Origin: Limonium bicolor
Lineage: Eukaryota; Streptophyta; Magnoliopsida; Caryophyllales; Plumbaginaceae
Length of the DNA: 64,000 bases
Assembly: GCA_023374045.1 (NCBI GenBank)
Contig: CM041782.1
Span: 186,700,925 to 186,764,924, forward strand
Reading direction: 5' to 3'
In this document: one piece after another, positions 19,364-64,000 of the stretch
How positions within the stretch are numbered: position 1 is the first letter of the stretch
How the letters are laid out: each line of letters opens with the position of its first letter
The notes under the pieces: model-generated
Told to the model about the DNA's origin: nothing
Databases searched by the model: none
Seen by the model: the letters and a program-made list of their open reading frames with translations, nothing else
Position numbers and translations under genes: made by a program

Positions 19364-19819
19364 CGTCCGACCCAGGGGTCCGACCCAGTTTTGGGTCGGA
19401 CAGCCTCTGCTAGACGTTAGGGAAGTGTTCTGTAATGGTCCGACCCAAAAGGGTGGGTCGGACATGGGTCGGACGGTCATATTTCAAAGGAGGGAAAATG
19501 TTTCTGGAATGGTCCGACCCAGTCGAGTGAGTCGGACGTGGGTCGGACGGGCATGTTTGTAAGGCGGTGAAATGTTATGTAATGGTCCGACCCAGAAGGG
19601 TGGGTCGGACATGGGTCGGACGTGTATGTTCTGACGTCGATGAAGTTCTCTGTAATGGTCCGACCCAGTCTAGTGAGTCGGACTTGGGTCGGACATGTCT
19701 CTGGAATGGTCCGACCCAGAAGGTTGGGTCGGACATGGGTCGGACATGGTAAGGTTCTTCAGACCCGAAAACCACTGGAAGGGTCCGACCCAGTTGTGGG
19801 TCGGACGGTGGGTCGGACA
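19364..19819. repeat. Inverted-repeat array, TCCGACCCA type (LTR B)
   Basis: About seven units of the form GGTCCGACCCAG - short spacer - TGGGTCGGACATGGGTCGGAC. Each unit can fold into a 9-10-bp stem, and the second TGGGTCGGAC gives an alternative partner. Apparent frames on both strands here (19567-19867) are by-products of the repeat. Confidence 0.85.
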
Positions 19820-21610: not shown

Positions 21611-22433
21611 AAGTCCAAACCTGGGATTTAGGTGATCCCACCGCACCATCTTAATGCCACCTACCCTGGACGGGAATCCAGCATAGCTGAGCTGGCAACC
21701 GGCCCTAGGCTACAAGTCCGAAGACAAGTCCTTAAGCGGAGGGCGATCTGATTCAGATACCGTCCCCCTTTTCCTTAGCATGCATGACCGGAGATCGGTC
21801 CCGGGTTTCCTCACTCAAGTTCCAGTTAGTAATAGTCTCAAGACCATGTTTGTTGGTTAACCTCTTTCGGTTCATATCGTCCCTCATTAGGGGGCGTTCC
21901 TTAGTCTCACTCAATTCCTTACTAAACATTGGTTAGTAAGTTCTCACGGTATGTTGTGTTAGTTTTCAAACATCACACAACAATACAAGAAATATAATAT
22001 ATTCCGATTGCATGCTTTATCTTGTTTAGTGAGCACACATACAAATAGCACACAAGCCGAGGGACACCTCGTTAGCAAGCAGGTCACAAGAGAACTGTAC
22101 CGTTCACCGTTGGTCGTTCGGCTGCTTACTCTCCTCCGGAGTCCAAACTCCCAAGTCCTAAAACATTCATTCAGTTTTAGGTTGTTAATCACTTAACTCA
22201 ATTCAACTTACTTATCTTACTTAACTTGCTTAACTTACTTAATTCCTTAATGATCCCCACCTAACACCTTTAAGTCTTACAACTTAATCTTGCAAACTTA
22301 ATCTTAAACTTTAAGTTTATTCTTAACTTAATCCCTCAGGTCTTTATACCTCTAATCATCATCGCCCCCTTAATGGGGTACCATTAATACCACTAAACTC
22401 TCTTAGGGTTTCTTCTTTTTTTTTTTTTAAGGG

Positions 22434-22692
22434 TCGTCCGACCCACCGTCCGACCCACCCTCTGGGTCGGACTATTCCAGTAACTTTCGGGTTTGAAAAA
22501 CCCTACATGTCCGACCCACGTCCGACCCAACCAACTGGGTCGGATCATTCCAGAAACTTATTTGCCCTCTAAAACTCACCCGTCCGACCCATGTCCGACC
22601 CAAGACCTCTGGGTCGGACCATTCCAGAACCTTTCCCTGGCGTTAAACAGAGGCCGTCCGACCCAAACTTGGGTCGGACCCCTGGGTCGGAC
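22434..22692. repeat. Inverted-repeat array, TCCGACCCA type (LTR C)
   Basis: About four units pairing GTCCGACCCA with TGGGTCGGAC, in the same place as in LTR B but on the opposite strand. Confidence 0.8.
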
Positions 22693-30278: not shown

Positions 30279-31730
30279 TGTAACACCCCGTCCTAAGCCA
30301 ATCGTGGTTATCGCAAATCTCAACACTTAAATACAATCGTCGCAGCGGATAAAGAGTAACTACCGGGACCTTGCCACGGTCTGATCATATGAAATACCGA
30401 TCCTTAACACCTTACAACACTTATCTAAGTAATCCACCATCCAAAGTACCAACCAACCGAGTAGAGTATTTAAGTCACAACATAACTTTACATGAGTTTA
30501 ATATAAACAGACGGGAGCACAAGCGCAACCCGTATACAAAATGACAACCCATCCTAAGTCTAACCACCCCCACTCTCAGGGTGACTCCTCATCGGGCGCT
30601 TACCTGCAAAATAAAAACAGCCCCCAAAGGGGTCAGCACGAATGCTGGTACACCCTCTCATGGCCCCCAAGCTAACGGGGCTACGACGACTAATTGTCGA
30701 TAGCATGAAAGTTGATTAGCAATACATCATATATACGAAGTGCTATAAACAACAATTCACAATGAACAAGTAGTTCACACAAATTGAACGACACAAGCGT
30801 TCCCTTATCAAACGGGTTAGTAACCCTCTCCTTAATCCTTATTTCCTTAACCTCAGTTCCTTATCTTACCTCAGTCTTAACCTCATCTTAATCTCAGTAT
30901 ACAAACCGTTCCATGAAAGGAAATGGTTGTAGCTTAACTCAAACTTGGGATTTAGGTGATCCCACCGCACCATCTTAATGCCACCTACCCTGGACGGGAG
31001 TCCAGCGTAGCTGAGCCGGCAACCGGCTCTAGGCTACAAGTCCGAAGACAAGTCCTTAGGCGGAGGGCGGATCTGATTCAGATACCGTCCCCCTTCTCTT
31101 AGCATGCATGACCGGAGTCAGTCCCGGGTTCCTCGCTCAAGTTCCAGTTAGTAAAATCTTACACTCCAAGTGTTAGTTAAACCTTACCAGGTGTTAACCA
31201 ACCAACAACATTAATACTCACCTTAATCCAACCTCAGTAAGTACTAAACTTAATTAGTAACATCTCAAGTCTCGTGAGTTAGTGTAAAGAAAACACATAC
31301 ACAACGAGAACAAATATACCGGTTGCATGCTTTATCTTGTCTTAGTCATAGCAATTAAACATAGCACACAAGCCGAGGGACACCTCGTTAGCAAGCAGGT
31401 CACAAGAAGGATTGTACCGTTCACCGTCGACCGTTGTTTGATTAACTTCTTCGGGGTCCCAATTCACAAACCTAAAACATCGATTCATTTTTAGGCCGTT
31501 AGTTATTTACAACTTACTTAACTTACTTAGTCCCTATAAATCCCCATTCAATACCCTCTTAGGCCATTGCCTTTAACCTTATAACTTACTTTAAACATTA
31601 AGGTTTATACATATTCTTAACTTAATTACTTAAGTTCTTAGGGTCCTAATCATCAACATCCTATTAATGGCACACCTTAATACCATTACATCCTTAGAAA
31701 TAAAAATTTCTTTTTTTTTTTTGTGTTAAG

Positions 31731-32118
31731 GGTCGACCGACCCACCGACCGACCCAACCTATGGGTCGGTCCGTTCCAGTAACTTTCTGGTTCAGACAAC
31801 ACACCCTAGACCGACCCACGACCGACCCATCCTTTATGGGTCGGTCCATTGCCGAAACTTCCGTCTTTTGAAAATTCTCCGACCGACCCAAAGCTAAACC
31901 GACAACTTTCTGGTTCAGACAACAACCTAGACCGACCCACGGACCGACCCATAACCCTCTGGGTCGGTCCTCTGCCGAACCATTTTCCTTTGTTATTAAA
32001 TTTTGGCCGACCGACCCACCGACCGACCCATCCTTATGGGTCGGTCTATTCCGAAACATTTCTGCTGGGTTTACAAGGTCGACCGACCCAGAACTGGGTC
32101 GGACCCTGGGTCGGTCCA
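31731..32118. repeat. Inverted-repeat array, GACCGACCCA type (D 3' LTR)
   Basis: Units pair GACCGACCCA with TGGGTCGGTC (10-bp stems). About one unit longer than the 5' LTR copy at 42258-42520. Confidence 0.85.
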
Positions 32119-34145
32119 CTACAGATTTTCTTCTATTAATATGTTCTTTCAACTCCAAACTCTTCCCATGTATACTATTATGTTCCAACCTCATTTAGGT
32201 CCCTCAAATACACTTTAAACATTCCTCTAAAACCATTAAATCACTCACCAATATCCACCTTGATCATTATGCATTTTCATTGTAATAATGCCAACTTCTT
32301 ATAATGTTTTTCACTAGGTTTCTAGGTGGTGGTTCACACCTAATGTAACCTCTATGCCAATGCTTTCCTCATCACTATAACATCATCTCCCAAGCATCTT
32401 TCACCATCTAAACTCTTTTATGCATTTACCTAAGGCTTCTTCACAAGTTATTCTTCCCTCCATCAACACATCATTTCCTTCCTAGTGTCTACCAACTCTT
32501 GCCTAGTCCTAAATACTTCAAGTACATTCTTTTGATTCCTAACCCTCCTTGGTGACGCCTAAATCCTTATGACTCATTAAAACACCTTAAGCTCACCCTT
32601 TTTCATTAAGACAACCACTAGAACTTCCTAGTACTCCTTAGTCATGAGATTTCCTTAGAACATCTTAAACTCTTAGGTTCTTCATTATATTTTGCCATGG
32701 GTTCTCTAGTATATTGTTACACCCAACATTTGGCTTTTCTCATCATCAAACAACCAAGATCACTCATATCCTCATTGCAACATCTTAACACACAATTACA
32801 CCAAAACTACACCACATCACAATATAGTGCTTAAACTTAAAATGCTTGGCACTTAGGCCCTTAAATGACAATAATCTTAATCACTGAATTTCCACATATA
32901 TTGCCTTCAACCTGCGAATACACACAACAAGGCTCCCATTGAAATAAAATGCTTCTTGTAATTCATCACCACATTGTTTAACTAAGTCTTTTTCTCATTT
33001 GCTCTTTAGTCACTAGTTCTCAATATAATAGTATTCTTTCTCTTAGGTTTATAACTCCTCCCAAGGTAAACTCTACACTAAACTTATCATATATCTAAAT
33101 CCCATTCTTAAACAACAACACCTTAAGGTAAGTAATTTACCTTGTTCTTTCTCAAGCTTCACAAACTTTCCTCCTTAGTTTTTCCCTCTTCAATTTCGGT
33201 CACCAATATAAATCTCCTTGCCAATACTCTAAACAATGTCCAATGATTCTAATGAGCACTCAACAACTTATTAACCTCAAGGAATAAAACCTAGGTTAAA
33301 AATGTGTTTTAAGGTTTTAGATTGATTGTTTTACCTTAGTTCCTCAAGGCAAGCTTGGGTTTGAAGCTAGAAGGACCTCCTCTCTCCTTTGAAGAGTAGA
33401 AACAAGCTATGACAAGGCATCAAAATGAAGCCTCATGAGTATATATTTTCGGTCAAGAAGAAAGGTGATGGAAACCTAGATTTTCTTGCACTTTCTTTAC
33501 CTTAAGAGAATGGAGATGCCAATGGAGTCTCCAAGCTTGAGTTTCCTCCTCTAATGGTGGTTTGGCTTGGCACCAAAGTGAAGCTCTTGGATTTTTGAAA
33601 AGATAGAAAGATGGAGCTTGAGCTAACTAAGAAGAATCTATGCTTTGTTTTGGATTTGGAGCTAAAATGAGTAAGTGGTGTGCAAGAGAAGATGGAGCTA
33701 GCATGGGGAAGAAGCTCACGTTAATGGAGAAGGGAGAGAGAGTAAGAAATCGTGGAACCAAGGGAGAATGAAGAAGTTAGGAGAGAGAGAAGACTAATGT
33801 GAGATATTTGTTCCTAAAAAAATAGTGACTAGTACATCCCCTCCCTTATTTATCAATATTTCAATCTTGTGTTGTGACTCATCTCCCCTCCTTTAATAAA
33901 AACCGGCCACCCTTAAGTAACCAAGGTTACTTTAGTCCTTGTTTGTCAATTAACTCACTTATATTACTTATGTTACAAACTAGCTTAATTAAATCACTAT
34001 TCATACAACAAGGCACATTGTTGTGAAATTTTTGATTTCCCACTAATATAGCCTCCCAAATGTGATACTATATAGTACACATATATATTTAAGAGTAATG
34101 ATGGACATTTAGCCATTCAAAACTCATTTACAAGACAATTTTTCA

Positions 34146-34179
34146 AAAATGTGCTTTAAGACTCCTTAAAGCACATTTT
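34146..34179. promoter_or_regulatory. Conserved 34-bp U3 palindrome (D 3' LTR)
   Basis: Perfect 15-bp arms AAAATGTGCTTTAAG / CTTAAAGCACATTTT around ACTC. Confidence 0.6.
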
Positions 34180-34444
34180 GTGTTTTAAACTTGTTTTCAA
34201 GCTTGGTTTTCTTTGGTAATTGTTTTAAAATGACCATTAGGATATTACTAAGGTCTTAGAACAATATTTGGGTACTCTCCCAAGTCTCTCCAAGCTTAAA
34301 GCACGTTTTTGCTTAAACCGCACTTTCGGTGTTTCCTTATATTTCCTTTGTTTAAAATGGTTTCTAAATATTCCTAAGGCATTCTTTAGCCTTCTTATAC
34401 CTTAATTAATCACTTAAACACCATATCTAAGTTTGGGGTATTCA

Positions 34445-34465
34445 ATCTACCCCCCTTAAAAGAAC
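34445..34465 (-). promoter_or_regulatory. Polypurine tract of element D
   Basis: Minus strand GTTCTTTTAAGGGGGGTAGA, then T, right against the 3' LTR. Primer for plus-strand DNA synthesis. Confidence 0.8.
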
Positions 34466-34754: not shown

Positions 34755-36677
34755 CTAGTCAGTAAATAAAGAAGGGTACTTCGCCCTCATCTTATCCTCT
34801 AATTCCCACGTGGCCTCTTCGACATCCTGGTTAGACCAGAGAACCTTCACCAGTCGCACTGACTTGTGGCGAGTGTCCCTAGTCTTTCTGTCCAAGATTC
34901 TCTGAGGAGTCTCCACGGATCTCATATTCGGTTCTAAAGTCAACCTCTCAGGTTCTAACACATGGGAGGGGTGGTGCATGTACTTCTTTAGCTGGGAAAC
35001 ATGAAAGACATCATGCACTTTACCCAGGTCAGCAGGTAAATTCAACCTGTAAGCAACCGGGCCCACCCGCTCCGTAATCTCATAAGGACCAACAAACTTA
35101 GGGCTCAGTTTGCCCTTCTGCCCGAATCTAAACACACCCTTCATCGGTGATACTCGCAGAAATACCTGGTCGCCCACTGCGAACTCTAGGTCTCGTCGTC
35201 GAACATCAGCATACGACTTCTGCCTATCCTGAGCAGCTCTCATGTTCTCCCTGATTTGCTGAACTTCAGCCTTAACTTGCTCCAAATATTCTGGCCCTAT
35301 AATGACCGTCTCACTCGACTCATCCCAGCAGAGCGGTGTACGACATGGTCTACCGTACAACGCTTGAAAAGGTGCCATCTTGATCGAAGCGTGATAGCTG
35401 TTGTTGTATGAAAACTCGATCAGATGCAATTTGTCAATCCAACTGCCCTGGAAGTCTAAGGCACATGCTCTCAGCATGTCCTCGAGTGTCTGGATAGTTC
35501 GCTCAGTCTGACCATCTGTCTGAGGATGGAACGCGGTACTCAGCTTCAGCTCCGTACCCAACGCTTCTCTAGTAGCTCGCCAGTACCTCGAAAGGAATCT
35601 GGTATCTCTATCTGACACAATGGTCTTCGGTATCCCGTGATGTCTCATAATTTCCTTCTCAAATAACTCAGCCAATCTGGTCACCTTCCAAGTATCCTTC
35701 ATCGGTATGAATCGGGCTACTTTGGTAAGGCGATCCACCACCACCCATATCATGTTGAGACCTCCCCTAGCAGGTGGGAGTCCCACTACGAAGTCCATGG
35801 AGATATCATGGAACTTCCACTCCGGAACTGGCATCGACTGTACCATTCCGCCCGGTCGTCTGTGCTCAAATTTCACCTTCTGACATGTGAGACACCTCAA
35901 GACGTACTCGGTAACATCTGTCTTCATCCCCGACCACCAGAAGTACCTCTTCATGTCTTTATACATCTTAGAGGCTCCCGGATGGATGGAAACTGAAGAA
36001 CAGTGTGATTCTCTAAGTATACGGTCTTTCAGATCCGCATTGCCTCGTGGTATGCATAACCGGCCCTTTAGTCTGATCAGATCATCATCATGAAGTCTGA
36101 AGTCGTATTTCTGACTCTCAAAGGTACCATCTGTCAGCTTCTGTCTGACCTCTCTCATGTACTCATCTGCCCTCTGAGCCTCTCGCACCTCATCAACCAA
36201 GCTGGAGAAAGAAACTAGCGAATGGAGTGAGTGTGCTCGACGGCTCAGGGCGTCCGCTACAACATTGGCCCTTCCCTCTTTGTATTGAAGGTCAATGTCA
36301 TAGTCTTTCAGGAACTCCAACCATCTCCTTTGTCTGAGATTCAACTCCTTCTGAGTGAATATATATTTCAAACTCTTGTGATCGGTATAGATCGTCACAC
36401 TAACCCCGTATAAGTAATGGCGCCATATCTTCAAGGCGAAGACTACAGCTCCCAGCTCTAAATCATGCGTGGGGTAGTTCTCCTCATGTTTCTTCAACTG
36501 GCGTGAGGCATATGCCACCACCTTGCCATGTTGCATGAGCACGCAACCCAGCCCTCTGCCGGATGCATCACAATAAACCTCAAAGCCCTCCGTACCGTCT
36601 GGAATGGTCAGAACCGGTGCAGTGGTCAGTGAGTCCTTCAAACTCTGAAACGATCTCTCACAGTCAACCGTCCATCG
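34755..36677 (-). CDS. Pol, C-terminal half: RNase H, integrase, chromodomain (element D)
   Basis: An open frame of 628 codons from the internal Met at 36641, read in continuation of RT after a 1-bp loss. RNase [14 protein letters not shown] (Asp24), Glu62 and TDHKS (Asp87). Integrase zinc finger: His213, His220, Cys250, Cys253. Integrase core: Asp283 in SMDFV, Asp344 in VSDRDTRF, Glu380 in QTERTIQ, spaced D-35-E as expected. The C-terminus (about residues 595-626, [20 protein letters not shown] onwards) is a chromodomain, which places the element among chromoviruses of Tekay type. It would process primer RNA and insert cDNA, the chromodomain steering it to chromatin. The stop lies at the post-pol hairpin. 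All catalytic residues are present. Confidence 0.9.
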
Positions 36678-37861
36678 AACGGTGCATCTTTCTTCATCAG
36701 ACTGGTCATCGGTTTCGCGACCTTGCTGAAATTCTTAACAAACCGCCGGTAGTAACCTGCCAAGCCGAGGAAGCTCCGAATGTCGGTAACTGTCTTCGGT
36801 CTTGGCCAAGTACGCACGGCATCAATCTTCGCCGGATCTACCGAGATCCCGGCATCTGAAATGACATGACCTAGGAAAGAAACCTGGTCAAGCCAAAACT
36901 CACACTTGGAGAACTTAGCATATAGCTGGTTCTCCCTTAGTATCTCCAGTACTCTCCTCAAATGTTCCTCATGTTCAACCTTAGACTTCGAGTATATCAA
37001 AATATCATCAATAAACACCACAACCGACTTGTCCAGCTGCTCCCGGAACAAGCGGTTCATCAGATCCATAAACTTCGCCGGTGCGTTCGACAAACCGAAC
37101 GGCATCACTGTAAATTCGTAGTGGCCGTATCGTGTCCGGAATGCCGTCTTCTCAATATCTCCCTCCTTAATGGCTATCTGATGATACCCTGATCTGAGAT
37201 CAATCTTGGAGAATACAGAAGCTCCCTTCAACTGATCGAACAGATCGTCAATGCGGGGTAGTGGATACTTATTCTTCACAGTCACTGCATTCAACTCTCT
37301 GTAGTCGATGCAGAGGCGGAGACTACCATCCTTCTTCTTCACGAAGAGGACTGGCGCTCCCCATGGTGACACACTTGGTCTGATGAATCCCTTATCCAAC
37401 AAGTCTTTCAGCTGTTCCTTTAGCTCATTCATTTCGGCCGGAGCCATGCGATATGGTGCCTTGGCTATCGGTCCGGTACCAGGTAGCAGCTCGATGGTGA
37501 ACTCTACCTCCCGAGTGGGTGGCATGCCGGGCAGTTCCCGTGGAAAGAGATCAGGGAACTCCGACACTACCGGTAAGTCGGGGTCGAACTCGGGGTCTCT
37601 CTCTATGTCCTGGACATAGCAGAGGTACACTTCTTCCTTCCTCCTCAGCTCCTTATACATTGCCATGGCGGTGATGATCTTAGTCGAAGGCTCTCGAGGC
37701 CGCTGGCGGTATGATATGGTTACCCCAGACGGACTCCTGAGAAGCAGCCTATGCTCGGCGCAGAGGATACGACCCTTGTGCCGCTCCAACCAGTTCATCC
37801 CGAAGATAACATCAAATCCCAACTCTCTGAACTCAATAAAACTGACTGGGAAGTCTTCCCC
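36678..37861 (-). CDS. Pol, reverse transcriptase (element D), frameshifted at both ends
   Basis: The 394-codon frame starting at the internal Met 37822 ([15 protein letters not shown]) holds the linker after protease and a full RT. The fingers show [15 protein letters not shown] and [18 protein letters not shown]; the palm shows [12 protein letters not shown] and the active site [12 protein letters not shown] (FIDD at residues 270-273); the thumb/connection shows [15 protein letters not shown] and [14 protein letters not shown]. After APF (minus strand GCACCGTTCGATGGA) a single missing base shifts the frame, ending in a spurious tail. Restoring frame there would lead into the RNase H reading. 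A second one-base loss lies in a G run at 37858-37862. Both could be real mutations or assembly errors. Confidence 0.88.
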
Positions 37862-38132
37862 TTAATTCTGACAGTGGCTCCTCGGTAGTAGTGAGTGCAA
37901 CGAACCTTCTCCTTAGACGGGAGCGTAACCGTAAAGTCGGGTAGCTCGTCGGCGTCTAGCCCCAACCTTCTCGCAAAGGATGCCGAGATAAAGGTGTGCG
38001 AGGCCCCTGAGTCGAAGAGAACAGATGCCTCAATCCCATTAATCGGAAAGGTGCCGGTGAGGATAGTACCGCTTGCGCCGGCCTGTGCCTCTGTGAGTAT
38101 GCTTAGAGCACCTTCCGTACCGAGTCCATAAC
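37862..38132 (-). CDS. Pol, aspartic protease exon start (element D)
   Basis: The exon starts right after the acceptor ACAATTAG (intron 3) with GYGLGTEGALSILTEAQAG, then TGTFPINGIEASVLFDSGAS with the DSG active-site triad of retroviral-type proteases, then HTFISASFARRLGLD. The frame joins the gag zinc-knuckle exon in phase 1 (codon G|GT). It runs on to RIKGK, where a G-run deletion (37858-37862) breaks it. The protease would cut Gag-Pol into its mature parts. It is normal in length and motif for a Tekay-like protease. Confidence 0.82.
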
Positions 38133-38209
38133 CTAATTGTATTTCACAAGCTTCATGAGTAATGATGGTATAACAGGAGTCGTGACAAATATATGAACAA
38201 CACTGTTAT

Positions 38210-38215
38210 TTTATT
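38210..38215 (-). terminator. Possible poly(A) signal after AlkB
   Basis: AATAAA on the minus strand, ~60 nt after the AlkB stop codon, in a T/A-rich context. It would let the AlkB exon act as a terminal exon with its own 3' end. Alternatively it is the remnant of the captured mRNA's 3' UTR. Confidence 0.4.
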
Positions 38216-38275
38216 AATAACCATCCTGTTTACAACATGTGCTTCTCCTTACATCTCATACTAAACATTACATGG

Positions 38276-38992
38276 CTAATATTGTCTAAAGGTTAGGTTT
38301 AACCGTCCTGGTTTCATGTGCGTCGCATTAATTACTGCTGACGGTGCTGTATTCAACTTAATTCTTTTAATCCCATGGTACAACATCCTTGATTCTCCAC
38401 CCATAACTAATATATCTCCAGACTTAAGTATTAACTTATTTGCACGGTCCGCACGCTTCTGCTCGCCGTATAAAAATTCTGCATCATCCCCAATGGACCA
38501 AGACACTACGGGTATCCCTCTTTCGAGAGACTCCGCTGTCTCGTCCTTATCCTGGTGTAATCCGAGTCGTCCATCTTTCTCGTAGAAGTTTATTATGCAA
38601 ATGTCTGCTTGTATGTCTGGAATCGGTTCAGCTTCCAACTGCTGAGCGATTTCCACGACTTGTGTAATTACCGGATGGAACTCTTCGGGTATGCCCGGTG
38701 GTGAGTCTCCATCGTGTGTTCTAGTGGTTCGGTAAGTCTTGGCATACGGATTCCAATCCTTGCCCAAGCTCATCATCTTTAATTTCATCCTTGCTCCTCC
38801 TGGGTACTCCGGTGTGTAAAAACCTCCCGGTCCCACTCCTATCTGGTTGCACCTCCTGATGATGGCTATTTGAGCTTCGGGTGTCAGGTATCCCCTTAAT
38901 AGAATCATACCTGGGCGGATAACCTGACATTGTTCGGTTGGATAATCTCGGGTCTCGATGACGGTGTCTTCCGGGTTGGGTGTTGATGGCAT
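38276..38992 (-). CDS. AlkB-type 2-oxoglutarate/Fe(II) dioxygenase carried by a retrotransposon
   Basis: An intact 238-codon frame (ATG at 38992, TAG stop). Motifs seen: nucleotide-recognition-lid region GPGGFYTPEYPGGARMKLKM (54-73); N/D-x-Y-x motif INFYEKDGRLGLHQDKDE with metal ligands His146 and Asp148; GDILVMGGESRMLYHGI with the third ligand His206; and RLNLTFR (Arg230, Asn232, Arg236), where the last arginines bind 2-oxoglutarate. The text is closest to the compact bacterial AlkB/plant ALKBH1-like subgroup and not to the large ALKBH9/10 proteins. Family members remove methyl groups from N1-methyladenine, N3-methylcytosine or N6-methyladenine in RNA or DNA; the substrate here cannot be read from sequence. 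It is intronless although plant ALKBH genes usually have introns, which suggests capture through an mRNA copy. It lies between gag and protease, inside intron 3. The in-frame upstream extension SFNICYP links it to an alternative acceptor at 39016. All key residues are intact while pol is frameshifted. Confidence 0.93.
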   Translation of the reverse strand: MPSTPNPEDTVIETRDYPTEQCQVIRPGMILLRGYLTPEAQIAIIRRCNQIGVGPGGFYTPEYPGGARMKLKMMSLGKDWNPYAKTYRTTRTHDGDSPPGIPEEFHPVITQVVEIAQQLEAEPIPDIQADICIINFYEKDGRLGLHQDKDETAESLERGIPVVSWSIGDDAEFLYGEQKRADRANKLILKSGDILVMGGESRMLYHGIKRIKLNTAPSAVINATHMKPGRLNLTFRQY

Positions 38993-39014
38993 TGGATAGC
39001 AAATGTTGAAGCTT

Positions 39015-39030
39015 CCTAAGGTGGTAATAG
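39015..39030 (-). promoter_or_regulatory. Alternative 3' splice site for a Gag-AlkB fusion
   Basis: Minus strand ATTACCACCTTAG|GAAGC. The AG at 39017-39016 is preceded by a moderate pyrimidine tract. Joining the gag donor (after 39173) to 39015 completes codon G|GA and reads SFNICYP straight into the AlkB Met, with no stop. The phase is identical to that of the pre-protease acceptor. Inferred from sequence; use is unproven. Confidence 0.55.
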
Positions 39031-39172
39031 GTTATATCTTACTTATGTTCTAATCACAACATGTTCTTACTTAAGTTCTAATCTCATCTTATTCTTATCA
39101 TCTTAATCATTCACCAAGCATGCATGAAATGCGGTAAGCAGGCAATTTTATTACTAAAGGTTATAACGGTAC

Positions 39173-39514
39173 CTGGCCTCGATGAGGGCTCAGGCTCATC
39201 ATCCCGGTCCACCATGTGTAGTGTGGGTCCCGACTTCTGGACCACTCGTGGGTTCTTGTCAGCAGCTTGCTGTCCCCTCCTCTGACCGTCAGAACTAGCT
39301 CCCTGATCGGTCTTGCCCTTGCCCTTCATCTCGGGCCTATAGGCTCTGCTAGCGGGGTTCCGGAAGCACTCATAAGCTCGGTGCCCGTACACCCCACAGA
39401 AGTTGCACTCCACCTTATTTCCCTTGCAGTCGAGTCCGGGGTGGTCCTTGTGACACCACCTACAGATGAAGCGTCGCTGGTAGCCACCACCGGCTCCCTT
39501 CTCAGTCTCAGATC
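39173..39514 (-). CDS. gag exon 3: double zinc knuckle (element D)
   Basis: It starts after acceptor AATGATCAG and reads GSETEKGAGGGYQRR, then FICRWCHKDHPGLDC and CNFCGVYGHRAYEC. The first knuckle is CX2CX3HX4C (unusual spacing), the second the canonical CX2CX4HX4C of nucleocapsid proteins that bind the genomic RNA. The rest is basic and polar (KGKGKTDQGASSDGQRRGQQ) and ends in DDEPEPSSRP plus the first base of the split glycine codon. The length (342 nt) keeps phase 1 at both ends. From this exon the transcript can go to protease or, with the alternative acceptor, to AlkB. Confidence 0.8.
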
Positions 39515-39593
39515 CTGATCATTCATAATATTAATTCTCATATCTTAAACGGTTATTAATGGTCTCTTACTCACTCAATATTAGTTTCCTTAC
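39515..39593 (-). other. Intron 2 of gag (79 bp, element D)
   Basis: Donor CCAAAGG|GTAAGGAAAC and acceptor ATGAATGATCAG|GATCTG. AT-rich, with in-frame stops if retained (ATTGAGTGA). Removal keeps frame (phase 1) and joins ...RSKAPKG to SETEKGAGG. Confidence 0.75.
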
Positions 39594-39846
39594 CCTTTGG
39601 CGCCTTAGAGCGCAGGGGTGTAGCTGCGTAAGCATACGTCAGCTTCAATGGCTCTTCCTGAGCCTTCTCCTTTTCCTCCTTCCCTTTCGGGTTTTGATTT
39701 TTCTGGGCCTGAGGCTGGTACTTCTGTTTCTTGTACCCACCTTGCCCTTGGTGTTCTGTGCTTTTCCCAACATTCTTCCTCTTAGCATTGTCCTCGTCCC
39801 TCAGCTGGACGGTTATCTCAACCTTAGCAGCGGCATGATAGCACTC
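39594..39846 (-). CDS. gag exon 2 (element D)
   Basis: It reads ECYHAAAKVEITVQLRDEDN, then a Lys/Gln-rich stretch (KRKNVGKSTEHQGQGGYKKQ, then KYQPQAQKNQNPKGKEEKEK), then LKLTYAYAATPLRSKAPK. YHAAAKVE is the usual region after the capsid core in these chromovirus Gags. 253 nt, phase 0 in and phase 1 out. There is no start codon of its own, so it is meaningful only as an exon. Confidence 0.75.
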
Positions 39847-39930
39847 CTGCTTTTCAAAGTATTAGTTTCACTTAACTCTTGTAACTTAATCTTATTTATT
39901 CACTTATTTAAATCTCAACCATTCTTATAC
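39847..39930 (-). other. Intron 1 of gag (84 bp, element D)
   Basis: Donor ACCTTGCAG|GTATAAG and acceptor TTTGAAAAGCAG|GAGTGC. If not removed, Gag ends two codons past the donor (GTA TAA). Phase 0. AT-rich, typical plant intron length. Confidence 0.75.
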
Positions 39931-40566
39931 CTGCAAGGTAGTGTAACTCGTCGGCCCCATGCCGTAGCGGAGTCGATGGCTAAGCCCGCCATAGAAGCGG
40001 TCCACCAGGATCTGGTCAGAATACCCCAGACCTGGCAGAAGACGGAGCAAGGCGGTGAACTCTGAGTAATACTCGTCCACCGTCATCTTGTCGGTCTGCT
40101 TGAGCGCATCCAACTGCAAGCGCTTCTTCGTCTGGACATGGGCGGGATAGTACTTTGCCCGAAGCAACGCCGTGTACTGGTCCCAGCCGAAGTCTGGATT
40201 GGCCACGTGCTCGGCCCTCACCAGCTTCCACCAATCGCCTGCCGCCCCTTTCAGGTAGAAGGCAGCCAGACGCACCTTGATCCCAGCGGGGACATCAAGG
40301 GTCTCGAAGGCGGTCTCCAGCTCGGAGATGTACGCCTCAAGCTTGGCGGGATCCGTCTCCCCCTTAAAGTGTGCGGGTCGAAGGTCTGCAAGACTCTTCA
40401 CCCAATTCGGTTCCCGGGGTGGTGGAGGTGGAGGTGGCGCACCCACACCAGGCTGATAGCCCATGTGCCCCAAAGCAGCAGCCACGATCTCTGCGATCGT
40501 CTGCCCTCCCGGTATCTCAGCAGCATCATCACCTCTTCCTCGGCCTCGGCCTCTCCTTCCTGACAT
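39931..40566 (-). CDS. gag exon 1: capsid region (element D)
   Basis: 212 codons from MSGRRGRGRGRGDDAAEIPG. A basic Gly/Arg N-terminus and a run of seven prolines are followed by the retrotransposon Gag core: REPNWVKSLADLRPAHFKGE, then AAFYLKGAAGDWWKLVRAEH, FGWDQYTALLRAKYYPAHVQ, MTVDEYYSEFTALLRLLPGL and FYGGLSHRLRYGMGPTSYTT. This matches Retrotrans_gag (the W-W-K...F...F-Y-P...Y...F block). It forms the particle in which reverse transcription occurs. The start Met is chosen as the first ATG downstream of the 5' leader; the leader from PBS to ATG is ~220 nt. The frame ends at the donor of intron 1. Confidence 0.85.
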
Positions 40567-40785: not shown

Positions 40786-40797
40786 GCTCTGATACCA
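40786..40797 (-). promoter_or_regulatory. Primer-binding site for initiator tRNA-Met (element D)
   Basis: Minus strand TGGTATCAGAGC, complementary to the 3' end of plant initiator tRNA-Met, 4 nt from the 5' LTR. It overlaps one arm of the perfect hairpin ATCAGAGCGTA-GT-TACGCTCTGAT (+ strand 40770-40793). Confidence 0.88.
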
Positions 40798-42257
40798 CTT
40801 TTGTAACACCCCGTCCTAAGCCAATCGTGGTTATCGCAAATCTCAACACTTAAATACAATCGTCGCAGCGGATAAAGAGTAACTACCGGGACCTTGCCAC
40901 GGTCTGATCATATGAAATACCGTTCCTTAACACCTTACAACACTTATCTAAGTAATCCACCATCCAAAAGTACCAACCCACCGAGTAGAGTATTTAAGTC
41001 ACAACATAACTTTACATGAGTTTAATATAAACAGACGGGAGCACAAGCGCAACCCGTATACAAAATGACAACCCATCCTAAGTCTAACCACCCCCACTCT
41101 CAGGGTGACTCCTCATCGGGCGCTTACCTGCAAAATAAAAACAGCCCCAAAGGGGGTCAGCACGAATGCTGGTACACCCTCTCATGGCCCCCAAGCTAAC
41201 GGGGCTACGACGACTAATTGTCGATAGCATGGAAGTTGATTAGCAATACATCATAATACGAAGTGCTAAACAACAATTCACAATGAACAAGTAGTTCACA
41301 CAAATTGAACGACACAAGCGTTCCCTTATCAAACGGGTTAGTAACCCTCTCCTTAATCCTTATTTCCTTAACCTCAATTCCTTATCTTACCTCAGTCTTA
41401 ACCTCATCTTAATCTCAGTATACAAACCGTTCCATGAAAGGAAATGGTTGTAGCTTAACTCAAACTTGGGATTTAGGTGATCCCACCGCACCATCTTAAT
41501 GCCACCTACCCTGGACGGGAGTCCAGCGTAGCTGAGCCGGCAACCGGCTCTAGGCTACAAGTCCGAAGACAAGTCCTTAGGCGGAGGGCGGATCTGATTC
41601 AGATACCGTCCCCCTTCTCTTAGCATGCATGACCGGAGTCAGTCCCGGGTTCCTCGCTCAAGTTCCAGTTAGTAAAATCTTACACTCCAAGTGTTAGTTA
41701 AACCTTACCAGGTGTTAACCAACCAACAAAATTAATACTCAGCCCTTAATCCAACCTCAGTAAGTACTAAACTTAATTAGTAACAATCTCAAGTCTCGTG
41801 AGTTAGTGTAAAGAAAACACATACACGACGAGAACAAATATACCGGTTGCATGCTTTATCTTGTCTTAGTCATAGCAATTAAACAGATAGCACACAAGCC
41901 GAGGGACACCTCGTTAGCAAGCAGGTCACAAGAAGGATTGTACCGTTCACCGTCGACCGTTGTTTGATTAACCTTCTTCGGGGTCCCAATTCACAAACCT
42001 AAAACATCGATTCATTCTTAGGCCGTTAGTTATTTACAACTTACTTAACTTACTTAGTCCCTATAAATCCCCATTCAATACCCTCTTAGGCCATTGCCAT
42101 TTAACCTTATAACTTAACTTTAAACATTAAGGTTTATACATATTCTTAACTTAATTACTTAAGTTCTTAGGGTCCTAATCATCAACATCCTATTAATGGC
42201 ACACCTTAATACCAATTAACATCCTTAGAAATAAAATTTCTTTTTTTTTGTGTTAAG

Positions 42258-42520
42258 GGTCGACCGACCCACCGACCGACCCAACCTATGGGTCGGTCCG
42301 TTCCAGTAACTTTCTGGTTCAGACAACAACCCTAGACCGACCCACGACCGACCATAACCCTCTGGGTCGGTCCTCTGCCGAACCATTTTCCTTTGTTAAA
42401 TTTTGGCCGACCGACCCACCGACCGACCCATCCTTATGGGTCGTCTATTGCCGAAACATTTCTGCTGGGTTTACAAGGTCCGACCGACCCAGAACTGGGT
42501 CGGACCCTGGGTCGGTCCAC
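42258..42520. repeat. Inverted-repeat array, GACCGACCCA type (D 5' LTR)
   Basis: Same units as at 31731-32118 but about 125 bp shorter. Units have also suffered single-base losses (ACGACCGACCATAACCC, ATGGGTCGTC). Confidence 0.85.
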
Positions 42521-44547
42521 TACAGATTCTTCTATTAATATGTTCTTTCAACTCCAAACTCTTCCCATGTATACTATTATGTTCCAACCTCATTTAGGTC
42601 CCTCAAATACACTTTAAACATTCCTCTAAAACCATTAAATCACTCACCAATATCCACCTTGATCATTATGCATTTTCATTGTAATAATGCCAACTTCTTA
42701 TAATGTTTTTCACTAGGTTTCTAGGTGGTGGTTCACACCTAATGTAACCTCTATGCCAATGCTTCCTCATCACTATAACATCATCTCCCAAGCATCTTTC
42801 ACCATCTAAACTCTTTTATGCATTTACCTAAGGCTTCTTCACAAGTTATTCTTCCCTCCATCAACACATCATTTCCTTCCTAGTTGTCTACCAACTCTTG
42901 CCTAGCCCTAAATACTTCAAGTACATTCTTTTGATTCCTAACCCTCCTTGGTGACGCCTAAATCTTATGACTCATTAAAACACCTTAAGCTCACCCTTTT
43001 CATTAAGACAACCACTAGAACTTCCTAGTACTCCTTAGTCATGAGATTTCCTAGAACATCTTAAACTCTTAGGTTCTTCATTATATTTTGCCATGGGTTC
43101 TCTAGTATATTGTTACACCCAACATTTGGCTTTTCTCATCATCAAACAACCAAGATCACTCATATCCTCATTGCAACATCTTAACACACAATCTACACCA
43201 AAACTACACCACATCACAATATAGTGCTTAAACTTAAAATGCTTGGCACTTAGGCCCTTAAATGACAATAATCTTAATCACTGAATTTCCACATATATTT
43301 GCCTTCAACCTGCGAATACACACAACAAGGCTCCCATTGAAATAAAATGCTTCTTGTAATTCATCACCACATTGTTTAACTAAGTCTTTTTCTCATTTGC
43401 TCTTTAGTCACTAGTTCTCAATATAATAGTATTCTTTCTCTTAGGTTTATAACTCCTTCCCAAGGTAAACTCTACACTAAACTTATCATATATCTAAATC
43501 CCATTCCCTTAAACAACAACACCTTAAGGTAAGTAATTTACCTTGTTCTTTCTCAAGCTTCACAAACTTTCCTCCTTAGTTTTCCCTCTTCAATTTCGGT
43601 CACCAATACAAATCTCCTTGCCAATACTCTAAACAATGTCCAATGATTCTAATGAGCACTCAACAACTTATTAACCTCAAGGAATAAAACCTAGGTTAAA
43701 AATGTGTTTTAAGGTTTTAGATTGATTGTTTTACCTTAGTTCCTCAAGGCAACTTGGGTTTGAAGCTAGAAGGACCTCCTCTCCCCTTTGAAGAGTAGAA
43801 ACAAGCTATGACAAGGCATCAAAATGAAGCCTCATGAGTATATATTTTCGGTCAAGAAGAAAGGTGATGGAAACCTAGATTTTCTTGCACTTTCTTTACC
43901 TTAAGAGAATGGAGATGCCAATGGAGTCTCCAAGCTTGAGTTTCCTCCTCTAATGGTGGTTTGGCTTGGCACCAAAGTGAAGCTCTTGGATTTTTGAAAA
44001 GATAGAAAGATGGAGCTTGAGCTAACTAAGAAGAATCTATGCTTTGTTTTGGATTTGGAGCTAAAATGAGTAAGTGGTGTGCAAGAGAAGATGGAGCTAG
44101 CATGGGGAAGAAGCTCACGTTGATGGAGAAGGGAGAGAGAGTAAGAAATCGTGGAACCAAGGGAGAATGAAGAAGTTAGGAGAGAGAGAAGACTAATGTG
44201 AGATATTTGTTCCTAAAAGCAAATAGTGACTAGTACATCCCCTCCCTTATTTATCAATATTTCAATCTTGTGTTGTGACTCATCTCCCCTCCTTATAAAA
44301 AAAACCGGCCACCCTTAAGTAACCAAGGTTACTTTAGTCCTTGTTTGTCAATTAACTCACTTATATTACTTATGTTACAAACTAGCTTAATTAAATCACT
44401 ATTCATACAACAAGGCACATTGTTGTGAAATTTTTGATTTCCCACTAATATAGCCTCCCAAATGTGATACTATATAGTACACATATATATTTAAGAGTAA
44501 TGATGGACATTTAGCCATTCAAAACTCATTTACAAGACAATTTTTCA

Positions 44548-44581
44548 AAAATGTGCTTTAAGACTCCTTAAAGCACATTTT
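44548..44581. promoter_or_regulatory. Conserved 34-bp U3 palindrome (D 5' LTR)
   Basis: Identical to 34146-34179, with perfect arms. Confidence 0.6.
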
Positions 44582-44839
44582 GTGTTTAAACTTGTTTTCA
44601 AGCTTGGTTTTCTTTGGTAATTGTTTTAAAATGACCATTAGGATATTACTAAGGTCTTAGAACAATATTTGGGTACTCTCCCAAGTCTCTCCAAGCTCTT
44701 AAAGCACGTTTTTGCTTAAACCGCACTTTCGGTGTTTCCTTATATTTCCTTTGTTTAAAAGTTTCAAATATTCCTAAGGCATTCTTTAGCTTCTTAACTT
44801 AATTATCACTTAACACCATATCTAAGTTGGGGTATTGCA

Positions 44840-45425
44840 ATTATGCTGGGATGAGTCGAGTGAGACGGTCATTATAGGACCAGAGTATCTGGAGCAAGTT
44901 CAAGCAGAAGTTCGCCAGATCCGGGCTAACATGAAAACAGCTCAGGATAGACAGAAGTCGTACGCAGATGTGCGCAGACGTGACCTGGAGTTCGCCGTGG
45001 GTGATCAGGTATTTTTGAGAGTATCCCCCATGAAGAGAGTGTTTCGTTTTGGCCAGAAAGGCAAGTTGAGCCCAAAATATGTGGGGCCTTATGTTGTGAT
45101 GAGCGAATCAGCCCGGTAGCTTATAGACTTGACCTACCCGCCGAGCTGGGCAAGGTACATGATGTATTCCATGTGTCCCAGTTGAAGAAGTATATGTCTC
45201 ATCCGTCTCATGTGCTTCAGCCTGAAAGGATAACCTTAGAGCCGACCATGCGATCAGTGGAGACTCCGGTATGCATTCTGGATACTAAGACTCGAGACAC
45301 TCGCCATAAGTCTGTGAGACTGGTGAAGGTTCTCTGGTCTAACCAGGACGTTGAGGAGGCCACTTGGGAGCTGGAAGATAAGATGAAGGCGAAGTACCCG
45401 TCATTGTTACTTCTTAGTGTTTGTA
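44840..45425 (+). pseudogene. Element E pol, integrase C-terminus and chromodomain only
   Basis: The frame begins at the junction with D as [19 protein letters not shown], close to the same region of D's integrase, and runs through [20 protein letters not shown] (GPY/F domain). A one-base loss at ~45100 (GTGATGAGCGA) breaks the frame. It resumes as [20 protein letters not shown] and a chromodomain [20 protein letters not shown]. Everything upstream of mid-integrase is gone. E is a close relative of D on the opposite strand, truncated at 5' by the rearrangement that placed D here. Confidence 0.85.
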
Positions 45426-47845: not shown

Positions 47846-48250
47846 CGTCCGGCCCAGGGGTCCGACCCAAGTTTGGGTCGGACAGCCTCTGTTAGACGTC
47901 AGGAAATTGTTCTGGAACGGTCCGACCCAGAGGACTTGGGTCGGACATGGGTCGGACGGTCAAGTTTTGAAGGACGAAAAATGTTCTAGAATGGTCCGAC
48001 CCAGTCAGGTGAGTCGGACATGGGTCGGACGGGCGTGTTTGTAAGGCGGTAAGTTTCTGTAATGGTCCTACCCAGTCGAGTGAGTCGGACTTGGGTCGGA
48101 CATGTATGTTCAAAGGTCGATAAAATTCTCTGGAATGGTCCGACCCAGAAGGTTGGGTCGGACATGGGTCGGACAAGTTGAGTTTTTTTTAAACCCGAAA
48201 ATCACTGGAAGGGTCCGACCTAGTTGTGGGTCAGACGGTGGGTCGGACAG
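47846..48250. repeat. Inverted-repeat array, TCCGACCCA type (LTR E)
   Basis: About six units of GGTCCGACCCAG...TGGGTCGGACATGGGTCGGAC. Unit order and number differ from LTR B. Confidence 0.85.
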
Positions 48251-61243: not shown

Positions 61244-62053
61244 TCACCCCTCCTGGGTGAACTGAATATGGCGCTCCATGAGCCTCCTGAAGGATCTCCC
61301 TACGCAGCACTGCATCGTCTGGCACACATACACGGCCTCTGAAACACGACACACCCATTGCTGGAGAGACACTGAAGTCTGAATTCTGCTCTGAAGACAG
61401 CCCTCTCTAATCCGACACAAAGCTGAATCTGCTTCCTGACCAACCCGGATCCTGTCGACCAACGAAGACTGAACCTGAAGCGCTGCTATCACACTGGCAC
61501 TGGCTGGTCTGACTACCCAAACACCCATACGCTGCAGCTCTAAGGCGGACCTCTGGACTCCCGTCAGAGCACAAGCTACACCCGAAGCACCTCTCCGGCT
61601 CAAGGCATCTGCAACAACATTCGCTCTACCCGGGTGGTAGAGGATCTCTAAATCGTAGTCATGAAGTAGCTCCAACCACCTCCTCTGTCTCAAGTTCAGC
61701 TCCTTCTGAGTGAACAAATACTTGAGACTCTTGTGGTCCGTGTAAACCTTACACGACGCTCCATACAGATAATGCCTCCAAATCTTGAGCGCGAACACTA
61801 CAGCTGCCAACTCCAGATCGTGGGTAGGGTAGTTCTTCTCATAGGGCTTAAGCTGCCGCGAGCCATAAGCCACCACCTTACCCTGCTGCATCAAAACACA
61901 TCCCAGTCCCTTATGGGACGCATCACAGAAGACCTCGAATCCCTCGGTCCCAGAAGGCAAAGTCAGAATCGGTGCGGTCGTCAGCCTCTTCTTAATCTCC
62001 TGGAAACTCTGCTCACAAGCCTCGCTCCACTCATACTTGACCTCCTTCCTCAA
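61244..62053 (-). pseudogene. Element G RNase H
   Basis: 269-codon frame with [60 protein letters not shown] and [15 protein letters not shown]. The carboxylate residues of RNase H are all present (FCDAS, DLEL, TDHKS, VADAL). It continues to an RH-integrase linker and HIQFTQEG, then breaks before the zinc finger. Upstream it is separated from RT by frameshifts near 62060-62115. Confidence 0.85.
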
Positions 62054-62115
62054 CAGACGGGTCAGCGGGGATACAATCTTAGAGAACCCCTCAACGAACT
62101 TCCTGTAGTACCCAG

Positions 62116-62726
62116 CTAACCCAAGGAAACTCGAATCTCAGCAACATTCGTGGGCCTCGCCCACTCCATCACAGCTCTAATCTTCTCAGGATCCACTGAG
62201 ATACCGTCCTTCGAGACCACATGTCCCAAGAATACTACACGATCAAGCCAGAAGTCACACTTCTTCAACTTAGCATAAAGCTCACGATCCTTCAGCGTCT
62301 GCAAAACAATCCTCAGATGCTCCTCATGCTCCTCTGCGCTCCTGGAGTACACCAAGATATCATCTATGAAGACCACTACAACTGATCCAGATAGGGTTTG
62401 AAAACCCGGTTCATCATATCCATGAATACTGATGGAGCATTAGTCAAACCAAAAGGCATGACTAGGAACTCGTAATGACCATAACGAGTCCTAAAAGCGG
62501 ACTTAGGCACATCCTTCGCCTTAATCCTCAACTGATGGTAGCCTGAACGAAGATCTATCTTCGAGAACACTGTGGCGCCCGCCAACTGGTCAAACAAATC
62601 ATCTATGCGCGGAAGGGGATAGCGATTCTTGATGGTCACCTTGTTCAGCTCCCTGTAGTCGATGCACAAACGGAAGGTCCCATCCTTCTTCTTCACAAAC
62701 AGCACTGGCGCCCCAAGGCGAAACAC
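62116..62726 (-). pseudogene. Element G reverse transcriptase, two frames
   Basis: 62726-62376 reads [40 protein letters not shown] and [20 protein letters not shown]. 62376-62116 reads [20 protein letters not shown] and [20 protein letters not shown]. The FIDD catalytic box follows the frame break at ~62376. RT is otherwise complete. Confidence 0.85.
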
Positions 62727-63434
62727 TAGGGCGTATGAAGCCCTTATCTAACAGCTCCTGAAGCTGGACCTTCAGCTCCTTCAACTCCGCCGGACTCATA
62801 CGGTAAGGGGCCCTAGAGATGGGCTGGTCTCTGGCGCTAATCGATGGTGAACTCCACCTCTCGCACTGGTGGAAGTCCGGGCACGTCGTCCTGGAAGACC
62901 TCTGGAAACTCTCTGACGATCGGGATGCTCTCCAAGCTAGATCCCTCACGCACCTCTGGCAGATAACATAAGAAGCCCTGGCAACCCTTCCTCAAGAAAC
63001 TGGCTGCCTGCATCGCTGACACAATCACCGGCGCACATGGAACTGCATTCCCAGAGAAAGCAAAACGAGACCCGTCTGGCAAGTCGAACACCACTCTCTT
63101 CGCTGCACAATCTATATGGGCATGGTGCTCTGCTAGCCAATCCATGCCCAGAATCACATCAAAACAGGTCATCCGCATCGGGATGAGGTCAGCAAAGAAG
63201 GTCTTGTCCCTAACTACTATGGGACAAGCCTTACACACAGAATCCAACACACAAGGGGCAACCCCACCTAACGGACTACTCACACATAGGTCTACCTCAC
63301 TAGGCATAGCAGTCAGTCCAAGATCACCCAGTAAATCATAGCACAAAAGAATGCGTAGCTCCAGAGTCAAACAGACAAAATACATCTCGAGAATGGATCT
63401 GGAGAATACCTGAGATGACGCGATCACCAGCTCG
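62727..63434 (-). pseudogene. Element G protease and PR-RT linker
   Basis: The minus strand near 63353-63373 encodes FDSGATH, the protease active site, followed by a frameshift. The frame to 62837 then has DLIPMRMTCFDVILGMDWLA and [20 protein letters not shown], the linker before RT. A further shift precedes [20 protein letters not shown] (62949-62599). Same gene order as D, but with gag directly followed by protease and no AlkB between them. Confidence 0.75.
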
Positions 63435-64000
63435 ATCACGCTCTCCAGCCATAGCATAAACCCGGGCCTGAGTCTGAGGCTTCTTCTGATCGGACCTCGC
63501 CCCTGAATCTGAGCCGGTGCCTCTCTCCCCCCTGAGCCTCTACTGGATGCCTGAGGGCACTGAGCGATCCGGTGCTCCATCGACCCGCACTTAAAGCAGG
63601 CACCAGTCTTCTTGTAGCACTCCCTACCAGGATGGGAGCGACCACAAGCCCCACACTTCGCCCCAGCTGACGAAGATGAAGAAGCTCCCCGCGATCTCCA
63701 TAGGTCTGCTTCTTCTGAGGAGGAGCAGCCTCCTTCTTCTGAGGCTCCTCAGCACGCCTCTTCCCCTTATGGTCCTTGCCCGCCTGTCTGCCCCTGATGT
63801 CCGCCTCTACCAGCAAGGCGACATCCGCCACATCTCTGAAGGTCCGGTGACGAAGAGGTGTCACCGCCGACCTGATGTCTGGCCTCAAACCGCTCTCGAA
63901 CTTACGAGCCTTCCTATGCTCATCTGGCTCCGGAGCATACTTCGACAGGGTCACGAACTTCCTCACATACTCCTCTACAGACATATCTCTCCCCTGACGC
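63435..64000 (-). pseudogene. Element G gag, C-terminal half (runs off the window)
   Basis: The frame at 63984 reads MSVEEYVRKFVTLSKYAPEP, RKFESGLRPDIRSAVTPLRH and KGKRRAEEPQKKEAAPPQKK. After a shift the minus strand at ~63660-63570 encodes CGACGRSHPGREC and CFKCGSMEHRIAQC, again a double zinc knuckle. The N-terminal capsid part is outside the window. Confidence 0.8.

Follow-up and report, generated by a model that had tools for sequence, protein, structure and literature searches.

The 64,000-nucleotide stretch of Limonium bicolor DNA analyzed here (GenBank assembly GCA_023374045.1, contig CM041782.1, positions 186,700,925 to 186,764,924; hereafter the window, with positions counted from its first letter) harbors on its minus strand a 14.6 kb, chromovirus-like Ty3/gypsy retrotransposon running from 44841 to 30279, in which an ALKBH1-type AlkB gene stands as an alternative last exon of gag. 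Gag exon 3 ends in a single donor that is joined to AlkB in one spliced form and to pol in the other, and the strongest evidence for this choice is provided by the joins themselves, which are found as exact exon-exon junctions in genomic DNA. Through this captured exon, the element probably brings a Gag-demethylase fusion into its particle, where the enzyme would strip N-methyl marks. A broader formulation, in which a chromovirus lineage with a multi-exon, alternatively spliced gag swaps Pol for an ALKBH1 eraser, each particle has a built-in RNA/DNA demethylase and the genome keeps reverse-transcribed spliced RNAs as a fossil transcriptome, stands at about an even chance of being right. At the sequence level, the proposal draws on an in-phase exon-intron structure, genomic copies of both spliced forms, a kept active site, purifying selection and co-inheritance of AlkB with the element's reverse transcriptase (RT).

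Exon-intron structure of gag and genomic copies of its spliced forms

Gag begins with exon 1, the capsid part (39931..40566, on the minus strand like all features of the element; Pfam Retrotrans_gag E 3.8e-18, Ty3_capsid E 2.8e-13), followed by intron 1 (39847..39930; 84 nt, GC content 0.25, CAG/GTATAAG ... AAAGCAG/GAG with slashes at the splice sites), exon 2 (39594..39846; 253 nt), intron 2 (39515..39593; 79 nt, GC 0.28) and exon 3 (39173..39514; 342 nt), which contains a zinc knuckle matching Pfam zf-CCHC below the curated cut-off and ends at the shared alternative donor. Two acceptors are paired with this single donor (39173/39172). Splicing to 39015 takes out a 157 nt intron 3 (39016..39172; GC 0.32) and leads, in frame with the gag exons, into the alternative last exon encoding the ALKBH1-type dioxygenase (38276..39015); splicing to 38132 takes out 1040 nt (38133..39172), the AlkB exon included, and leads into pol. 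When spliced in silico to AlkB, the window copy forms one 656-aa Gag-AlkB frame with no internal stop, and when left unspliced it stops after 213 codons. Neither the division of gag by introns nor the use of AlkB as a splice choice had been part of the earlier, sequence-only reading of this stretch, which had suggested that the protein may erase methyl marks, repair alkylated genomes or tune the element's splicing; it is the AlkB exon itself that proves to be a splicing alternative.

The frame breaks between gag and AlkB are intron-like, with GT-AG ends and GC contents of 0.25-0.36 versus 0.46-0.60 in the exons. The window copy and 20 further copies were aligned as family A (21 rows), in which introns 1 and 2 have changed more rapidly than the exons and the donor and acceptor sites are conserved except in rows damaged or changed there (L017 at the intron-1 acceptor, L024 at intron 2). 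Spliced likewise, 4 of the 20 other family A copies show 0-1 stops (L010, L011, L027, L028), whereas in the other 16 the frame is interrupted by indels, stops or missing segments, chiefly within gag. In one copy of a second family, B, GC contents are 0.41 for intron 2 and 0.36 for intron 3 versus 0.55 for exon 3. The pol acceptor at 38132 was found by comparing the two families: protein homology extends upstream, the frame-breaking indels of family A lie before 38132, and the AG of this acceptor is present in 20 of the 21 rows. Two departures from the usual arrangement were also observed: the deletion in L024 begins at the intron-2 donor but, in contrast to the precise intron losses at other loci, extends into exon 3, and in the L037 type of family B the intron 2 acceptor AG lies a few bases upstream of its usual place, which would add about one codon.

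Exact junctions were then counted across the genome with family A patterns, using the reversed patterns as controls, all of which returned 0 places. The exon 1-exon 2 junction was found at 558 places (with at most 2 mismatches) and the exon 2-exon 3 junction at 184, where chance with even base use would give 0.05 places each. The join of exon 3 to AlkB (Gag-AlkB) was found at 9 places, 4 of them perfect, and that of exon 3 to pol (Gag-Pol) at 14, of which 8 are perfect over 25 letters, against chance expectations of 0.01 and 0.34; both sets of places are known from the matched letters only. Unspliced copies are far from rare, the intron-1 donor being found at 5291 places with up to 3 mismatches, one more than was allowed for the spliced exon 1-exon 2 junction. 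The spacing between neighboring junctions indicates which introns are missing at a given place. At C1:44.42M the exon 1-exon 2 and exon 3-pol junctions are 595 nt apart, the sum of exon 2 (253) and exon 3 (342), and hence none of the three introns is left; at C3:2.66M and C7:284.54M the exon 2-exon 3 and exon 3-pol junctions are 342 and 341 nt apart, and at C2:322.47M the exon 2-exon 3 and exon 3-AlkB junctions are 333 nt apart (421 with intron 2), so that introns 2 and 3 are gone in all three; and at two places near C1:27.8M the unspliced intron-1 donor lies 755 and 760 nt before the Gag-AlkB join, where 758 would be expected if introns 1 and 2 were still in place, so that only intron 3 is gone. 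Some of these places are likely sister copies, and the independent events are therefore fewer than the places.

Exact intron absence was also seen in aligned loci. Intron 2 is exactly absent in 4 of 29 family B loci (L045 and the near-identical trio L029, L030 and L036) and present in most of the others; intron 1 is absent from family B wherever the region is intact. Introns 1 and 2 are exactly gone, with intron 3 retained, in L060 and L061, two of ten loci fetched through the gag pattern (the first-listed 10 of 558; hereafter gag-anchored loci). As a separate observation, one AlkB copy (G000:C8:10214379-10215089) lies in a 644-aa open frame, where the usual length is 252, and could be an intron-less gag-AlkB, although the family B junction pattern gave no match.

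With regard to the protein, the sequence-only reading had reported an intact 238-codon AlkB open reading frame (ORF) between the gag knuckle and protease of an element with long terminal repeats (LTRs), a primer binding site (PBS) and a polypurine tract, a description that the ORF, Pfam and LTR alignment analyses confirmed. The minus-strand ORF at 38276-38992 has 238 codons and 0 internal stops, and Pfam PF13532 (2OG-FeII_Oxy_2) matches it along the full length of the profile, at residues 28-236 (E 7.2e-46). H146, D148, H206 and RLNLTFR are all found in it, giving both the HxD...H and the RxxxxxR motif of the AlkB family. Its top solved relative by sequence is rice OsALKBH1 (5xeg, E 6.1e-74), followed by E. 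coli AlkB, at 2.4e-24 or weaker, and animal ALKBH1, at 2.2e-13 or weaker, and the best fold matches of an AlphaFold2 model (mean predicted local distance difference test score, pLDDT, 87.1) are 5xoi/5xeg, with template modeling (TM) scores of 0.85-0.92. By sequence and model, the window protein is thus an AlkB-fold 2-oxoglutarate-Fe(II) dioxygenase with predicted demethylase activity, and it is assigned to the ALKBH1 group, since its best sequence and fold matches are to OsALKBH1 and its named database relatives are plant ALKBH1 or AlkB-like proteins; the host ALKBH1 proteins listed are 45-53% identical to it. The reading frame reported earlier stands, and only its start had to be moved: the coding exon begins at 39015, upstream of the ATG, and the SFNICYP encoded there matches the FDIC motif of host ALKBH1, with FDICYP at the same spot in the printed family B loci.

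Copy number, selection and descent of AlkB

In the L. bicolor genome (2.92 Gb), an AlkB search gave 52,617 first-look candidates and at least 150 matches at 90-100% identity. The AlkB acceptor pattern of family A is present at 4283 places and its gag donor pattern at 4771 (control 0 each), which suggests that nearly all copies keep AlkB, the two figures being separate counts and not paired places. Using rice ALKBH1 as query, at least 150 further matches were obtained, and the 29 of 30 fetched that could be oriented make up family B, the AlkB of which is 58-61% identical to that of family A (five printed loci), with 83-88% identity over an RT stretch (14 printed rows). AlkB lies at the same place in all ten gag-anchored loci, five of which form family C (AlkB 68-73% identical to the window protein). 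AlkB is therefore common to three families, A, B and C. Among the matches listed for the two queries (150 and 147), the ALKBH1 gene of this plant itself was not identified; the listed matches look like element copies, since their open frames are mostly 245-261 aa long and no clearly closer match is present. It was further observed that several copies lie on the same strand about 10.2-10.5 kb apart (e.g. G000:C1:1431691, 1442154, 1452606, 1463071), a spacing equal to an internal region together with a single LTR, which would fit tandem arrays with shared LTRs.

The AlkB exon is under purifying selection. In family A, the ratio of nonsynonymous to synonymous substitution rates (dN/dS) is 0.131-0.137 for AlkB. 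The other coding parts of the same copies range from 0.066-0.117 (RT) and 0.086-0.145 (gag exon 1) through 0.154-0.177 (integrase) and 0.164-0.174 (gag exon 3) to 0.290-0.378 (protease). The AlkB of family B yields 0.150 and the comparison of families A and C 0.126, at a synonymous divergence (dS) of about 1.5; for A against B, dS has largely reached saturation. In the gag-anchored loci, AlkB dN/dS is 0.146 for family C (5 copies) and 0.207 for family A (3 of 5, two copies having been dropped and out-of-frame stretches excluded). The active site is kept accordingly: in family A (21 rows), H146, D148, H206 and R236 are present throughout and R230 in 20 rows, and in family B (29 rows), H146 and D148 are present throughout, R236 in 28 rows, and H206 and R230 in 27 rows each.

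AlkB has also been inherited together with RT. Pairwise AlkB and RT distances correlate with a Mantel r of 0.96 over 45 copies, and of 0.70 both within family A (20) and within family B (25), and none of 2000 permutations reached such values. In a tree of 42 rows, a comparison with host ALKBH1-like genes that the sequence-only reading had proposed, the 16 element-type AlkB proteins (6 of the 21 family A rows, 6 of the 29 family B rows and 4 database proteins, P0002-P0005) form one clade with support 100/99, apart from the 26 host proteins; this clade sits on a long branch, and the tree does not resolve its closest host. Since AlkB is co-inherited with RT and the element proteins form a single clade, the history is most simply explained by a single capture and a long period of vertical descent thereafter. 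The same earlier reading had held that the gene would shrink to one chance insertion if no other copy had AlkB at this place or if dN/dS were near 1. Instead, thousands of matching sites and AlkB in 10 of 10 gag-anchored loci lead to the rejection of a chance insertion in one copy, dN/dS is 0.13-0.21 with out-of-frame stretches excluded, and the shared position, a ratio far below 1 and the AlkB-RT correlation together support the view that AlkB belongs to the element.

Proposed function and alternative explanations

In the proposed mechanism, an ALKBH1-type gene was likely captured from a plant host. The RNA spliced from exon 3 to AlkB would encode a Gag-AlkB fusion protein, that spliced from exon 3 to pol would encode Gag-Pol, and the unspliced RNA would be the copied genome. 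Gag assembly would then carry the fused enzyme into the particle. There it would be in contact with the packaged RNA, with the tRNA that serves as primer and with the cDNA strand made first, and it would likely erase N-methyl marks from the packaged RNA, the tRNA primer or the new cDNA, the substrate being the least certain step. Human ALKBH1 acts on m1A58 (N1-methyladenosine 58) of initiator tRNA, an activity of interest here because the PBS of the element is presumably of the initiator tRNA-Met type. ALKBH1 enzymes remove N6-methyladenine (6mA) from unpaired DNA and act on RNA (background in PMC10469495).

Several results weigh against this interpretation. Splicing has been deduced from genomic DNA alone, and a search with the Gag-AlkB fusion against 5.8 billion proteins, in which only the 7992 candidates with most shared words were scored, gave 73 hits, 0 of them with both gag and AlkB Pfam domains. 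The Gag-AlkB junction was found at 0 places in the genome with the family B pattern, and part of the 558 exon 1-exon 2 places belong to family C (5 of the 10 fetched), which may just have no intron 1. Taken as a whole, intron 3 shows no clearly faster divergence than the AlkB exon, and most of its differences are indels. A first pol acceptor at 38090 (CACAG/AGGCAC), chosen by phase and a conserved AG, was rejected when its junction was found at 0 places and the control at 2, and the acceptor at 38132 was picked after this failure. As for selection, the first samples of families A and B were picked by AlkB similarity, which lowers their dN/dS somewhat, and in the gag-anchored family A loci the ratio rises to 0.488 with all five copies and the out-of-frame stretches. 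Finally, within the AlkB region covered, the frame is broken by stops, frameshifts or both in 8 of the 10 gag-anchored loci, and H146 is lost in one; gag exon 1 is whole and without stop in 3 of the 10, so that decay looks alike in both genes.

The main rival to erasure of methyl marks is repair, an unlikely alternative in which the fused enzyme would clear alkylation damage, such as m1A and 3-methylcytidine (m3C), from packaged RNA or single-stranded cDNA. The AlkB-type active site and modeled fold would suit this role, as would the preference of ALKBH1 enzymes for unpaired nucleic acid (PMC10469495), and repair has been proposed for the AlkB of plant RNA viruses, as quoted in PMC9289625. No damage-related evidence was found, and none was sought; the names of the host relatives, which are mixed between 6mA demethylase and alkylated DNA repair protein, point both ways. 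Less probable still is an action outside the particle, on host RNA or chromatin 6mA, that would weaken silencing of the element family. Such an effect would fit with rice ALKBH1, which affects 6mA and gene repression (PMC10469495), but the splice phase and the codons retained ahead of the ATG speak for a fusion with Gag, which favors assembly with Gag.

The possibility that the AlkB exon is a mere device for setting the Gag:Pol ratio, where splicing into it ends translation after Gag and enzyme activity is irrelevant, must be considered given that the single donor serves two acceptors and that splicing to one of them runs into a stop, and given that BARE1 is thought to use its gag splice in this manner (PMC3735527). 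It is nonetheless quite improbable, for a stop needs no 245-codon enzyme with RT-like dN/dS and a kept active site. Hardly credible, lastly, is translation of AlkB as a separate ORF from its own ATG without splicing, the gag gaps being damage of the window copy: the ATG is present and most listed copies share a 251-aa open frame bounded upstream by a stop, but gaps with GT...AG ends occur in thousands of copies and are precisely absent elsewhere at the same points, and as to intron structure this reading is refuted by the shared GT-AG gaps and the exact losses. Delivery of a Gag-fused demethylase into the particle is hence retained as the preferred explanation.

Anatomy of the element and comparison with known systems

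The element is bounded by a 5' LTR at 40802..44841 (4040 nt) and a 3' LTR at 30279..34446 (4168 nt), both delimited by blastn and MAFFT alignment to each other. The pair is 99.1% identical, with 35 substitutions over 4017 aligned columns (Kimura two-parameter distance, K2P, 0.0088), corresponding to an age of 0.34-0.63 million years under two substitution rates. A polypurine tract, AAGGGGGG, adjoins the 3' LTR at 34450..34457. The PBS, TGGTATCAGAGC, lies 4 nt inside the 5' LTR (40786..40797) and is taken here to be of the initiator tRNA-Met type. The use of this type of PBS has been described in chromoviruses (PMC3605345). Gag with its CCHC knuckle lies upstream of AlkB, and the pol exon (34755..38132), with protease, RT, RNaseH, integrase and chromodomain, lies downstream, so that the LTRs, PBS, polypurine tract, gag and the pol order protease-RT-RNaseH-integrase of Ty3/gypsy elements are all present. 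Two frameshifts break the pol frame of the window copy; its gag exons and AlkB have none. Placement among chromoviruses would follow from a chromodomain match at the integrase C-terminus (residues 579-621, 34779..34907; Pfam Chromo E 9.7e-5), which at 22.7 bits is itself below the curated Pfam cut-off of 25.1. The scanned ORFs contained no second RNase H, and no target-site duplication was seen at the outer LTR borders (44842 / 30278), where the 5-base flanks are ATAAT and GGTTT; its lack in so young-looking a copy may reflect recombination between elements or a boundary error.

Two further features of the window were recorded. LTR-like stretches at 19427-19759, 22412-22502, 31711-32075, 42238-42475 and 47909-48188 carry repeated GGTCCGACCC...GGGTCGGAC palindromic units, which are in places tandem, several at a spacing of about 73 nt. 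A second, degraded Ty3/gypsy element at 61244-63984 (minus strand), the only AlkB-lacking relative looked at, has gag adjoining protease with no AlkB between them; its RT is 58-78% identical to that of the main element over matched pieces, and 89% over 18 residues.

The sequence-only reading knew of no standard Ty3/gypsy gene set with an AlkB gene, a view that is superseded by the case of Phalaenopsis, the only genus in which a screen of 121 angiosperm genomes found 2-oxoglutarate-dependent dioxygenase (2-ODD) domains in LTR elements (PMC9289625). In the Gypsy_Pa_2799 family of this orchid, a paALKBH5-like ORF2 encodes an enzyme that demethylates N6-methyladenosine (m6A) in vitro (PMC9289625). 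As here, a Ty3/gypsy element with long LTRs has acquired an AlkB-family gene and kept it through amplification. The orchid gene, however, is of ALKBH5 type and forms a separate ORF2 beside a gag-pol ORF1, whereas the gene described here is of ALKBH1 type and forms an exon between gag and protease that appears to be spliced to gag. The orchid RT falls within Tat next to Ogre, in a 25.5 kb element with an arginine-tRNA PBS, as opposed to a chromodomain match, 14.6 kb and a presumed methionine-type PBS in L. bicolor; the Tat/Ogre traits described for Phalaenopsis, a dual RNase H and no chromodomain, likewise differ from the chromodomain match and the absence of a second RNase H in the scanned ORFs. 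A literature search, with subscription journals and preprints outside its scope, showed among the entries listed neither a further LTR element with an AlkB gene nor a chromovirus with several introns. If the present interpretation is true, L. bicolor would add to the orchid case a second lineage of plant Gypsy elements that has an AlkB enzyme of its own, one from another subfamily that was acquired along a different route. Plants and retrotransposons would then seem to have clashed over methyl marks more than once. A Ty3/gypsy element interrupted by several introns would have to reserve unspliced transcripts for copying and use spliced ones for translation, and the rare intron-less copies make this choice, as well as the Gag-AlkB form, directly testable in the living plant.

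Tekay-type chromoviruses share with the element the order gag-protease-RT-RNaseH-integrase-chromodomain, long LTRs and, presumably, an initiator-methionine-type PBS (PMC3605345, PMC6317226). In sugar beet, Tekay LTRs measure 1.0-3.0 kb, versus 4.0-4.2 kb here, and LTR length alone hints at membership of this clade. Most plant LTR groups encode their polyprotein in one ORF, and the available text of the same two papers makes no mention of gag introns or an AlkB exon for Tekay. Splicing itself has precedents. In Ogre, also a plant Gypsy element, an intron is removed from part of the RNA, joining parts of the polyprotein (PMC6317226, PMC12786077), but this is a single intron between gag-prot and rt, in contrast to three introns, two of them inside gag, and a choice of two last exons. 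A 2025 review describes plant LTR elements as generally intron-less, with Ogre and EVADE as exceptions, and cites the orchid case for AlkB (PMC12786077); a small gag intron is reported for BARE1, with Bagy2, Ogre and CRR as other spliced plant elements (PMC3735527). Compared with the plant host enzymes (ALKBH1C/D-like; rice OsALKBH1, 5xeg/5xoi), the element protein has the same fold, the same active site and the FDIC motif before the domain, but it belongs to a clade of its own and its Gag part takes the place of the long host N-terminus. The presence of AlkB in plant Gypsy elements is thus already known, and it is the AlkB subfamily, the lineage, the position and the mode of expression that, judging from these comparisons, appear to differ in L. 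bicolor.
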